Positions 30,817-34,411 of a DNA stretch of 64,000 nt are shown here, piece after piece. The translations under genes were made by a program, and so were the position numbers. The stretch is from positions 186,001 to 250,000 of the forward strand of contig NZ_BJTG01000007.1 in NCBI RefSeq assembly GCF_013340205.1. The letters run 5' to 3'. Within the stretch, counting starts at the first letter, position 1. Each line of letters begins with the position of its first letter. Source of the stretch: Anaeromyxobacter diazotrophicus. Lineage in GTDB: Bacteria; Myxococcota; Myxococcia; Myxococcales; Anaeromyxobacteraceae. The notes beneath the pieces were generated by a model. It saw only the letters and a list, made by a program, of their open reading frames with translations. It did no database searches and was not told the origin of the DNA.

Positions 30817-31230
30817 ATGCTGCGCAAGGCGATCAGCGACATCGAGGCGAAGTACCTGCGGAAGGACGTGCCGGAGTTCCGGTCCGGCGACACGGTGCGC
30901 GTGCACACGAAGATCAAGGAAGGCGACAAGGAGCGCATCCAGGTCTTCGAGGGCGTCGTCATCCGCCACAAGAAGGGCGACGCGCGCGCGATGTTCACCG
31001 TGCGCAAGGTCAGCTACGGCGTCGGCGTGGAGCGCATGTTCCCCGTCCACAGCCCCCGCATCGACCGGATCGAGGTCCTCGGCCACGGCGAGGTCCGCCG
31101 CTCCCGCCTGTACTACCTGCGCGAGCTGCAGGGGAAGGCCGCCCGCCTCCACCAGGAGGAGGGCCCGCTCGGCGCCGCCGCTGGCGCGGCCGCCGCGAGC
31201 GCGCCCGCCGCGCCCGCTCCCCAGGCCTGA
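30817..31230 (+). CDS. rplS: 50S ribosomal protein L19
   Basis: L19 forms bridge B8 at the subunit interface. The 137-residue product has the conserved [31 protein letters not shown] and [20 protein letters not shown] with [15 protein letters not shown]. It carries an Ala/Pro tail. AAGGAGAG lies upstream. It ends the trmD operon before a strong hairpin. Confidence 0.97.
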
Positions 31231-31287: not shown

Positions 31288-33159
31288 GTGCTGCTCCTCG
31301 AGATCGCGGCCCAGGGCGTGAAGGGTGTCTCGCCGTCCGGCGGGAGCGCCCGGCTGCGCCCGGGGTACAACCTCGTCCCGTTCGACGGCGCCTCGCTGCG
31401 CCGCCTGCTCGAGGCGCTGTTCCGCCCCGCGCCCGGCGACGCCGAGGCGCTCTGCGGCAGCGCCCCCGGGCGCGGCGCGCTGCGCGCCGGCGCGACGGTG
31501 CTCGGCGACGACGGCGGCACCTGGCGGCTCGTGCGCGACTTCGCCGCGGGCTTCCAGCTCCAGCGGCTGGATCCCCAGCGGCGCGCCTTCGCGCTGGTGG
31601 CCCAGGAGCCGGCCGCGGTGGCGCGGGCGCTCGCCGAGCGGGTGGGGCTGCCCGGGCCCGCCGAGGCGCGCCTGCTCACCCTCGCCCTCTCCGACCTGCC
31701 CTCGCGCCGGGGCGCGCCCGCCCCCGCGGCCGTGCCCGCCGCGGCGCCCGCCCCCCGGCGGGCGCTCGACCCCGCCCAGGCGAGCCGGCGCCTGGCCGAG
31801 CTCCGCGCCGAGCTCGCCCGCGCCGAGCGGGCCGAGAAGCTCCAGTACCAGCTCGACGGACTGCAGAGCCGGCTCTTCAAGGCGGAGGAGGCGCTCCGCG
31901 AGGGGGCGCGCCTGCGCGACGCGGTGGCGGCGGCCGAGGCGCAGGTCGCCGGCAACGCGCCGGCGGCCGCGGTCGCGGAGAAGCTCGGCGACGTCGAGGC
32001 CAAGCTCGCCGCGCACGGGCGGGCCACCGCGCGGCGCGACGAGGGGCTCGCCAAGGTGGAGGCGGACCGCGCCGCGCTGGCCGACGCGGAGGCGGTGGGC
32101 GCTCCCCGGCCCCCCTGGGCCGATCCGCGCTGGTGGGCGGGCGTCGTCGTGGGGCTGGGCGCCGTCGCGGCCGGGATCGCGCTCCGGCGCAGCGCGGAGC
32201 TCCGCTACCTGGCCCTGCTCGACATCCCAGCGTTCGGCTGGGCGGCCTGGGTCGCCCTGGGCTGGGTGCAGGCGCTCGAGGGGCGCGGCCGCCTGGGCCG
32301 GCGTCGGCAGCTCGTCGACGAGCACGAGCACAAGGTCCAGGAGGCGTTCGAGCGGGAGTCGGCCGAGGTGCGGGAGGCGCTGGCGGCGCTGGGCGTCAGC
32401 GGCCTCGGGGAGCTGAGGGACGCCCTGCAGCGGCTCGCCGACGCCCGGGGCGCCGCCGAGGCCGCCCGGGCGCGCCTGGCGGAGCTGGAGTCGAGCGAGG
32501 CGACCCGCTCGGCCGAGCAGGAGCGCGCCGCCGTGGAGTCGGAGCTGCGCGGGGTCGAGCACGCCCTGACCGAGGTGGCGGGCGGGTTCGTCCGCGACCC
32601 GCGCTCCATCGAGATGGAGATCTCCCGCATCGAGGCGGAGGCGGCCGCGCCGGCCGCGCCGGCGCCGGCCCCGGCGGGCGCGGCGACCCCGGCCACGGCC
32701 ACGGCCGCGCCCGAGGCGGCGGACCCCTTCCCGGAGGTCCTCGCGTGCGCCGCCGCAGCCCTGGGCGGCAGCCCGGAGGCGGCCGTCGAGGCGATCCGGC
32801 CGCGCGGGTCGCAGCTCCTGGCGGCGCTCTCCGGCGGGCGCCTGGGGGCGTTTGCGCTCGACCGCGGCGGCCGGGTGGTGGCGCAGGCCGGGACGCGCGT
32901 CACCCCGGCGGACCAGCTCCCGGCGCTCGATCGCGACCTGCTCTTCCTCTCCGTGAAGCTGGCCTTCCTGGAGCGCGCGCTCGCCGGGGGGCGGCGGGTG
33001 GCGCTGGTCGACGACGTGTTCGCGCCGCTGCCGGAGGCGGCGCGCCGGCTGGCGGGCCGGCTGCTCAAGCAGCTGGCGCGGCCGGGGCAGCTCCTGCACG
33101 CCACGAACGACCCGGCCTGCCGCGAGGCGGCCGACCACGTGGCGCAGGCGGCGCCGTGA
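31288..33159 (+). CDS. Membrane-anchored SMC/YhaN-like protein lacking a Walker A motif
   Basis: The function is not known. The 623-residue protein has SMC-like architecture. The N-terminal head starts LLLEIAAQGVKGVSP and continues LRPGYNLVPFDGASLRRLLE where GxNGxGKST would stand, so the P-loop is missing. Two coiled-coil arms (about 168-270 and 345-445) flank a pair of membrane helices (about 284-330). The C-terminal head keeps VALVDDVFAPL, like a Walker B, and LLHATND, like the switch region. In active SMC-like ATPases both heads are needed, so this one may bind no ATP. The long Ala/Pro linker (about 452-475) is low complexity. GTG 31288 has no Shine-Dalgarno. Its stop overlaps yraN (GTGA). 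Confidence 0.6.
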   Translation: MLLLEIAAQGVKGVSPSGGSARLRPGYNLVPFDGASLRRLLEALFRPAPGDAEALCGSAPGRGALRAGATVLGDDGGTWRLVRDFAAGFQLQRLDPQRRAFALVAQEPAAVARALAERVGLPGPAEARLLTLALSDLPSRRGAPAPAAVPAAAPAPRRALDPAQASRRLAELRAELARAERAEKLQYQLDGLQSRLFKAEEALREGARLRDAVAAAEAQVAGNAPAAAVAEKLGDVEAKLAAHGRATARRDEGLAKVEADRAALADAEAVGAPRPPWADPRWWAGVVVGLGAVAAGIALRRSAELRYLALLDIPAFGWAAWVALGWVQALEGRGRLGRRRQLVDEHEHKVQEAFERESAEVREALAALGVSGLGELRDALQRLADARGAAEAARARLAELESSEATRSAEQERAAVESELRGVEHALTEVAGGFVRDPRSIEMEISRIEAEAAAPAAPAPAPAGAATPATATAAPEAADPFPEVLACAAAALGGSPEAAVEAIRPRGSQLLAALSGGRLGAFALDRGGRVVAQAGTRVTPADQLPALDRDLLFLSVKLAFLERALAGGRRVALVDDVFAPLPEAARRLAGRLLKQLARPGQLLHATNDPACREAADHVAQAAP

Positions 33160-33557
33160 CGGCGCGGCCCCGGGGCGCCGCCCCGGCGGAGCGCGGCGCC
33201 CGCGGGCGCGAGGCCGAGGCGCTCGCGGCCGCCTTCCTGGAGGGGCAGGGCTACCGCGTGCTGGCGAGGAACCACGCCACCCGCCGCGGCGAGGTCGACC
33301 TCGTCTGCCGCGAGGGCGCGACCCTCTGCTTCGTCGAGGTCCGCAGCCGGACCCGGGGCGACTACGGCCCGCCCGAGGAGTCGGTGACGGTGGCCAAGGC
33401 GCGCCGGGTGGTGGGCGCGGCCACCGACTGGGCGCTGCGCCACGGCGGGCTCTCGCAGCCCATGCGCTTCGACGTGGTGGCGGTCGACCTCTCCGGCCCC
33501 GCCCCGCGCTGCACGCTCTTCCGTGGCGCCTTCGACGCCGACGGGCGGTGGACGTGA
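33156..33557 (+). CDS. yraN: YraN/UPF0102 family nuclease-fold protein
   Basis: The 133-residue protein has the restriction-endonuclease-like core: RNHATRRGEVDLVCREG and LCFVEVRSRTRGDYG, with the E-D-ExR pattern of the family. YraN-type proteins are linked to DNA uptake and processing, but their reaction is unproven. GTG 33156 overlaps the previous stop as GTGA, as its own stop does with rsmI, so the three genes form a coupled chain. The first about 20 residues (ARPRGAAPAERGARGREAE) are variable. Confidence 0.88.
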   Translation: MTARPRGAAPAERGARGREAEALAAAFLEGQGYRVLARNHATRRGEVDLVCREGATLCFVEVRSRTRGDYGPPEESVTVAKARRVVGAATDWALRHGGLSQPMRFDVVAVDLSGPAPRCTLFRGAFDADGRWT

Positions 33558-34411
33558 GCGAGCCCTCCGCCGGGCGCGGCACGCTGTACGTGGTGGCGAC
33601 GCCCATCGGCAACCTGGGCGACCTCACCCCCCGCGCCGCCGAGGTGCTGCGCCGCGTCCGCGCGGTGGCCGCCGAGGACACCCGGCGGACGCTGCAGCTC
33701 TTCGCCCACCTGGGCGCGCCCGCGCCGCAGCTCCTCGCGCTGCCCGCCTTCGACGAGCGCGGGCGGCTCGGGCCGGTGCTGGCGCGGCTGGCCGCGGGCG
33801 AGGAGGTGGCCCTCTGCACCGACGCGGGCACCCCCGGCGTGTCCGACCCCGGCCAGCAGCTCGTGGCCGCCGCCTGGGAGGCGGGCGCGCGGGTGGTGCC
33901 GCTCCCCGGCCCGTGCGCCGCGGTGACGGCGCTGGTGGCCTCGGGGCTCCCCTCCGACCGCTTCTTCGTGCAGGGCTTCCTCCCGCGCAAGGGCGGCGGC
34001 CGGGCGGAGGCGCTGGCGCTCCTGCGCCAGCTCCCGGCCACGCTCGTGATCTACGAGGCCGGCAACCGCACCCCGGAGACGCTCTCCGACCTGGCGGCGG
34101 CGCTGGGCGACCGGCCGGCGGCGGTGGCGCGCGAGCTGACCAAGCTCCACGAGGAGCTCGCGCGCGGCACGCTGCGCGAGCTGGCGGAGCGGTTCGCGGC
34201 CGGCGCCCGGGGCGAGGTGACGCTGGTGGTGGCGGGCGCCGCCCAGGGGACGCCGGCGGAGGAACCCGCGCCCGAGCCACTGGAGGACGCGCTGCGCCGC
34301 CGGATGGCGGCCGGCGAGGCGCCGAGCGCGATCGCACGCGAGGTGGCGAAGGCGCGCGGCCTGAAGCGCGCCGACGTCTACGCGGCGCTGGAGCGCCTCA
34401 AGGGCCGGTAG
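33554..34411 (+). CDS. rsmI: 16S rRNA 2'-O-methyltransferase RsmI
   Basis: RsmI methylates the ribose of C1402 in the decoding site. The 285-residue product has the tetrapyrrole-methylase-like fold: LYVVATPIGNLGDLTPRAAE, VAAEDTRRTLQLF, CTDAGTPGVSDPGQQLV and LPGPCAAVTALVASGLPSDR, with ARELTKLHEELARGTL. GTG 33554 overlaps the yraN stop. GTG 33548 is an alternative, adding two residues. The C-terminal 40 residues form the extra helical domain. The hexamer tract begins 10 bp after its stop. Confidence 0.95.
   Translation: MSEPSAGRGTLYVVATPIGNLGDLTPRAAEVLRRVRAVAAEDTRRTLQLFAHLGAPAPQLLALPAFDERGRLGPVLARLAAGEEVALCTDAGTPGVSDPGQQLVAAAWEAGARVVPLPGPCAAVTALVASGLPSDRFFVQGFLPRKGGGRAEALALLRQLPATLVIYEAGNRTPETLSDLAAALGDRPAAVARELTKLHEELARGTLRELAERFAAGARGEVTLVVAGAAQGTPAEEPAPEPLEDALRRRMAAGEAPSAIAREVAKARGLKRADVYAALERLKGR

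Follow-up and report, generated by a model that had tools for sequence, protein, structure and literature searches.

A Rad50-like protein without a P-loop and with a predicted membrane hairpin, encoded between rplS and yraN in Anaeromyxobacter diazotrophicus and related Myxococcota

SMC and Rad50 proteins are ATP-driven DNA machines, and one of the closest described relatives of the protein analyzed here, the Rad50-like ATPase YhaN, has a membrane segment in its coiled coil and a neighbouring partner, YhaO, which is SbcD-like. In a window of 64,000 nucleotides from Anaeromyxobacter diazotrophicus (positions 186,001-250,000 of contig NZ_BJTG01000007.1, the whole stretch of DNA analyzed) we have studied a gene, in the following called X, whose product resembles Rad50 and SbcC in having an ABC head of two lobes separated in the sequence by an antiparallel coiled coil, and whose best PDB profile and fold matches point in the same direction. 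In contrast to Rad50 and SbcC, X of the window has no Walker A motif, no LSGG signature, no switch histidine and no CXXC hook, and its apex is a predicted membrane hairpin. The surroundings differ as well, with X flanked by rplS and yraN and not by an Mre11/SbcD-type nuclease, where it should be added that the neighbour survey of the relatives' loci looked for known neighbours only. X shares with YhaN the likeness to Rad50-type ATPases, but it has neither a match to the YhaN model AAA_27 nor a Walker A motif, and no YhaO-type partner is found among its flanking genes in the window. The likeness to SMC proteins lies in the head architecture (SMC3 8roh_A against the X model, Z 10.8), the difference being that no SMC hinge is seen between the arms of the model, where approximately 60 residues with two hydrophobic stretches are found. 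A weak profile similarity also connects the family to Lamassu LmuB and other SMC-like ATPases of defence systems, since 15 of 29 members match the LmuB model, at best with E 1e-9, but X of the window has no PADLOC hit and its recurrent rplS neighbour (see below) is a housekeeping and not a defence context. Nothing recognisable as the X family was found, at the level of search results, in the literature on YhaN/SbcC, Rad50-like and myxobacterial SMC-like proteins.

X is a GTG-started open reading frame encoding 623 amino acids, the coordinates of which were confirmed (Table 1), and it is the single protein-level match to X in the 4.83 Mb genome. The genes rpsP-rimM-trmD lie upstream, followed by rplS, X, yraN and rsmI, with gene names checked against Pfam and NCBIfam. 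The names of the last two, given earlier from the letters of the DNA, were upheld by the UPF0102/YraN and the 16S rRNA 2'-O-methyltransferase models. The three genes had also been described as chained by 4-bp overlaps; this holds for the X stop codon and the yraN GTG, which share 4 bp (33156-33159), but for yraN and rsmI it depends on the start codon, the overlap measuring 10 bp if the listed GTG (33548) is used and 4 bp with an in-frame GTG at 33554. The X protein alone gave no match in Pfam, NCBIfam or PADLOC, and a plasmid search with it gave no match either.

Table 1 Features of X and its neighbouring genes, with positions counted from the first letter of the window.
Feature	Position	Strand	Basis
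rplS (L19), upstream neighbour	30817..31230	+	Pfam Ribosomal_L19
Hairpin in the rplS-X gap, perfect 13-bp stem and 4-nt loop	31237..31266	+	folding z -3.1
TAACAT, -10-like element (TANNNT), 9 nt before the start codon	31273..31278	+	position-fixed in relatives
X, predicted membrane-hairpin P-loop-less Rad50-like protein	31288..33159	+	ORF, orthologues, fold and profile matches
N-terminal head lobe, residues 1-140	31288..31707	+	weak Rad50 3qf7 alignment; four model strands
Degenerate Walker A segment PGYNLVPFDGAS, residues 25-36	31360..31395	+	aligned with GxxxxGK[ST] of P-loop orthologues
Coiled-coil arm 1, residues 162-269	31771..32094	+	model helices 162-222, 224-233 and 236-269; block pLDDT 85-94
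Predicted transmembrane hairpin at the coiled-coil apex, stretches 281-299 and 309-327	32128..32268	+	Kyte-Doolittle scan, model helices
Coiled-coil arm 2, residues ~330-455	32275..32652	+	model helices
C-terminal head lobe, residues 481-620	32728..33147	+	1f2u_D structural match; Rad50 profile matches
ABC signature position, LPALDRD (544-550), where 3qf7 Rad50 has LSGGER	32917..32937	+	A1/A4 alignments, column counts
Walker-B-like strand VALVDDVF (571-578)	32998..33021	+	Rad50 alignment, column counts
HATND (604-608), with conserved H604; switch-His column is N607	33097..33111	+	P. furiosus Rad50 alignment, column counts
yraN (UPF0102)	33156..33557	+	UPF0102/YraN model match
rsmI	33548..34411	+	16S rRNA 2'-O-methyltransferase model; alternative in-frame GTG 33554

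When the PDB was searched with the single X sequence, Rad50 appeared at E 0.17, beside two dihydrolipoyl dehydrogenases at 0.4. The profile A1, built from 34 P-loop-less members, matched Rad50 C-lobes at E 1e-8 and left the N-lobe unmatched (-2.2 bits to 3qf7), and the mixed profile A4, with 29 members of which 7 carry the P-loop, matched Rad50 3qf7 at E 2e-13 with collinear segments scoring 16.2 bits in the N-lobe (17-140), 1.5 bits in the arm and 31.3 bits in the C-lobe. An AlphaFold model of X, made from five sequences, had a mean pLDDT of 72, with residues 1-70 below 50 and therefore unreliable. Comparison of structures, which the sequence-only reading had proposed as a check, gave Rad50 and SMC heads as the best matches of the model: 4ncj_A (Z 11.5, rmsd 5.6, 230 residues, from residue 36) and 1f2u_D for the C-lobe alone (Z 11.2, rmsd 2.6, 121 residues). 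The ten Foldseek matches at E <=0.001 were Rad50, Smc, JetABC and MukBEF-MatP entries, where the lists are to be read such that a family missing from one of them carries no meaning. The Z values alone are weak evidence, because coiled coils of unrelated proteins (chemoreceptors) score up to Z 10.5 in that structural list, and it is the profile matches and the column-by-column motif positions that we take to decide the placement with Rad50. X has a Rad50-type two-lobed ABC head, of which the C-lobe is firmly placed and the N-lobe weakly, the best structural alignments beginning at residue 36 or later.

The earlier label of X as SMC/YhaN-like thus stands for the type of head but not for membership of the YhaN family, since none of ten orthologues passed the cutoff of Pfam AAA_27 (PF13514, YhaN), the best score being 17.3 against 22 bits. 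YhaN proper was also sought elsewhere in the A. diazotrophicus genome and rejected: PF13514 gave only four matches of approximately 40-55 residues, which coincide with the P-loops of four frames, one of them DndD-like, one SbcC-like and two resembling ABC transporters. With Pfam AAA_23 (PF13476), X of the window fell below the cutoff and 5 of 8 orthologues with a P-loop (see below) lay above it, so the X family most likely descends from AAA_23-type ATPases.

An anatomy of head, coiled coil, two membrane helices, coiled coil and head had been claimed for X, and the model together with a hydrophobicity scan showed it to be largely right. The model contains four strands between residues 66 and 105, long helices at 162-269, a helix at 280-298, helices at 314-453 and the C-lobe at 481-620. 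A hydrophobic stretch scoring at least 1.4 was present at the apex of 67 out of 67 proteins (X of the window included), and a close pair of stretches above 1.4 was found in 38 of the 67 and in all 8 P-loop members. There is no CXXC zinc hook in the X sequence, the apex holding the hydrophobic pair instead. The second hydrophobic stretch (approximately 32212-32268) carries LLDIPAFG, with an acidic residue and a proline inside the predicted membrane helix, and the same motif is the majority sequence of alignment A1.

It is clear from the alignments that PGYNLVPFDG (residues 25-34) occupies the place of the P-loop in X, just as it had been read before, and the pattern [GA]xxxxGK[ST] is absent from the whole X protein. 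It was found in 0 of the 47 sequences compared at first, the window included; among 20 more distant members, 8 have a Walker A motif exactly at the aligned place (e.g. GGPGSGKS or GPSGAGKS), and a ninth such member is present in genome G162 (locus L126). Counted over distinct N-termini, 85 of 94 are without the motif and 9 of 94 have it, and these nine are all nine genomes of one other class (the class of G089). The question of whether the missing P-loop is family-wide, raised together with the original observation, is thereby answered: the loop is missing in most of the family and kept in one class. All 8 placed loci of P-loop orthologues have rplS upstream of X.

The remaining motifs of the ATP site were analyzed by column counts over 82 other rows and 8 P-loop rows, with gaps set aside and many of the rows being close relatives. 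No row had a serine at 545 followed by a glycine at 546 or 547, as expected of an LSGG-type signature (87 rows: 79 others and 8 with P-loop), and the column of the signature serine held proline in 56 and serine in 6 of the 79 other rows, and proline in 5 of the 8 P-loop rows. The Walker-B-like VALVDDVF noted earlier is indeed present in X, and both of its acids are kept in 62/77 P-loop-less and 8/8 P-loop rows. HATND, which had been taken for a remaining ABC switch, did not hold up in this role, since the switch histidine of P. furiosus Rad50 aligns without gaps to N607, and H604 lies three residues earlier. The N607 column was histidine in 0 of 86 rows, P-loop members included. A shifted switch is possible in the 32 of 78 P-loop-less rows that have a histidine one column later, at 608. 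At H604 itself (33097-33099), 65 of the 78 P-loop-less rows and none of the 8 P-loop rows carry a histidine; H604 lies on a strand (602-605) that in this fold would be the neighbour of Walker B, making a new site possible. The finding that signature and switch are missing even in the P-loop members suggests that ATP cycling was degraded before nucleotide binding was lost, and members of the P-loop class may still bind ATP, though a Rad50-like cycle is not expected of them.

The P-loop class formed one group at 100/100 both in a TrmD/RplS/RpsP tree, rooted on E. coli with its long branch, and in an unrooted tree of X with the first 55 residues left out. In the E. coli-rooted tree the class is nested inside the P-loop-less rows (forks 94/83 and 85/78), and Walker A would therefore have been lost at least three times, if the loss is irreversible. 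In the unrooted X tree one change explains the distribution of Walker A, and given the long E. coli branch another root may allow a single loss. The two trees conflict over L103, which is sister to the Myxococcales in the ribosomal-operon tree (93/88) and sister to the P-loop class in the X tree (98/92).

X is present in 55 of 60 relatives, and matches were obtained in 129 of 144 Myxococcota genomes (minimum completeness 90), at least two of which are doubtful and probably other SMC-like proteins (G063 with E 4e-5, and G066 with a 1169-aa frame). Orthologues in the Anaeromyxobacteraceae are 44-60% identical over the full or nearly full length, and most full-length relatives have open frames spanning nearly the whole X query. 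Outside the order X is patchy: it was found in 5 of the 16 genomes belonging to the G090 class, in all 4 of the G061 class and in all 9 of the G089 class. X without a P-loop occurs in many families and several classes. The distribution refers to the Myxococcota; among the matches listed in a scan that also took in other phyla were four close relatives.

The general gene order is rplS-X-(rnhB)-yraN-rsmI. In a survey of 51 loci, where some of the misses are contig ends, 46 loci had rplS in the vicinity of X and 37 had a same-strand yraN downstream; for the locus L010 X was listed ahead of rplS, since its stop-to-stop frame extends upstream past the true start. Outside the Myxococcales a frame with the RNase HII motif (rnhB) follows X in L101-L106, L108-L111 and L113, and in at least L109, L111 and L113 it lies between X and yraN. 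In the A. diazotrophicus genome RNase HII is encoded on a different contig from X. The P-loop class has rnhB after X in 7 of 8 loci, the eighth (L107) being at a contig end, and none of the 8 has a same-strand yraN downstream, two having it inverted. Eleven genomes devoid of X were examined as well, and trmD was found in nine of them. There, rplS is followed directly by yraN in L171, L174 and L175 and by rnhB and then yraN in L170 and L172, while L168, L169, L173 and L176 were uninformative due to a contig end, a weak rplS match or rplS not being found. Because these five genomes keep rplS-(rnhB)-yraN, X is dispensable in these lineages.

Selection on X was quantified in 62 non-duplicate pairs from other Myxococcales, none from Anaeromyxobacter, with 86-99.5% identity; the median dN/dS was 0.16 (range 0.04-0.33), where pairs sharing species are not independent. 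By region the ratio was 0.14 in the first 60 residues, which include the place of the P-loop, 0.19 in the middle and 0.13 in the last 150 residues. The P-loop-less X in related genera is under purifying selection, and X is more than a chance open reading frame, as shown by orthologues of full or nearly full length, conserved synteny and this selection in related genera.

The -10-like element in front of X (Table 1) recurs at a fixed place, TANNNT starting between -18 and -13 in 51 of 85 distinct upstream regions compared with 0-4 of 85 in shifted control windows; the pattern was seen by eye before it was counted, and sequences from relatives do not count as independent. On visual inspection, each of the 19 rows from the window's family (listed as WIN, L009-L012 and L017-L032) carries the element. 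With this spacing, transcription would begin on the GTG or right beside it, and X therefore probably has its own promoter and heads a putative leaderless X-yraN-rsmI mRNA, apart from the ribosomal operon. The hairpin between rplS and X was considered as a conserved RNA element and rejected, as both sequence and strength vary among nine relatives (z +0.5 to -5.8); when seven relatives of the same family were folded, only L066 had one as strong (z -3.8). At the same place in the Myxococcaceae locus L063 a GC stem followed by a T run resembles an intrinsic terminator.

The evidence fixes the architecture of X and not its activity: the likeness of the head, the hydrophobic apex, the absence of motifs, the conserved locus and the purifying selection in related genera were observed, and membrane insertion and topology, the order of losses, ATP independence, tethering and cargo are inferred. 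The reading to which we give somewhat better than an even chance is that X is a Rad50-derived, membrane-rooted and ATP-independent tether or scaffold. Its ancestor would have been a Rad50-type two-lobed ABC-ATPase, and the tip of the coiled coil would now be a transmembrane hairpin, so placed that both ends of the polypeptide meet in one head approximately 16 nm into the cytoplasm (108 helix residues at 0.15 nm) on a rod rooted in the inner membrane. As signature, switch and Walker A are all missing, the head of the window protein cannot bind ATP, or pair with another head, in the canonical manner. The conserved head lobes may then hold a cytoplasmic partner near the membrane, perhaps nucleoid DNA or a nucleic-acid enzyme. 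Several observations speak against a tether: both Walker B acids are largely kept, which a pure scaffold need not do, the N-lobe is weakly matched, making an unusual nucleotide site possible, a shifted switch is possible in the rows with a histidine at 608, and some lineages do without X. For the phylum as a whole we give about even odds to a history in which a Rad50-type ATPase was relocated to the membrane, shed its signature and switch before its P-loop (the latter at least three independent times, should the E. coli-rooted tree be correct), and persisted under purifying selection as an ATP-independent membrane rod.

The retained Walker B acids would also suit a protein that forms the non-catalytic half of a hetero-complex and engages an intact Rad50/SMC head (SbcC or SMC) in trans, giving regulation or membrane recruitment, and the A. 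diazotrophicus genome does encode intact P-loop heads of the Rad50 type: a 1408-aa frame (L178), which we take to be SbcC-like, and a 682-aa frame (L177) with GDNMRGKT that matches DndD at E 3e-45, below the cutoff of that model. Such a complex nevertheless seems unlikely to us, since the signature that would complete the ATP site of the partner is replaced in all rows counted, and a single X is present in the genome with no P-loop head among its identified neighbours. The same acidic pair could, together with the new H604, line a remodelled pocket for a nucleotide or another small ligand, as the distribution of H604 between P-loop-less and P-loop rows might indicate; with Walker A absent from nine tenths of the N-termini counted above, we find a nucleotide or ligand pocket improbable.

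According to PMC1189080, YraN is a predicted PD-(D/E)XK endonuclease family. X and YraN could form a nuclease module in which X handles the DNA, in analogy to SbcC and SbcD. The 4-bp overlap of X and yraN, the same-strand yraN in most of the surveyed loci and the TANNNT element, which suggests a transcript headed by X, would all fit. A partnership with YraN is weakened because the P-loop class has rnhB and not a same-strand yraN after X, and genomes devoid of X keep rplS-yraN; X and yraN seem to be adjacent as a relic of an earlier rplS-rnhB-yraN order, and the module is in our view improbable. That orthologues with an intact P-loop might expose X as a decaying pseudogene was anticipated in the sequence-only reading, and such orthologues do exist (nine, eight of them placed and syntenic), but they do not make X a pseudogene. 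The frame is open over its full length in the window and nearly so in most full-length relatives, the dN/dS values from other Myxococcales are low, and the P-loop-less state is spread over many families and several classes. Decay is thus rejected at the level of the family, and for X itself we give it practically no weight.

With the tether or scaffold as the favoured reading, X represents a conserved family in which the likeness of the head and the arms have been kept and the ATP site has been discarded, with a sister class that keeps the P-loop at the same locus. By comparing X with this sister class it can be tested directly what the SMC/Rad50 architecture needs ATP for. In myxobacteria X is a candidate for a tether from the membrane to the nucleoid or from the membrane to an enzyme. 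If the phylum-wide history given above is true, the family would show an SMC/Rad50 architecture naturally uncoupled from ATP cycling, with intermediates that still exist.
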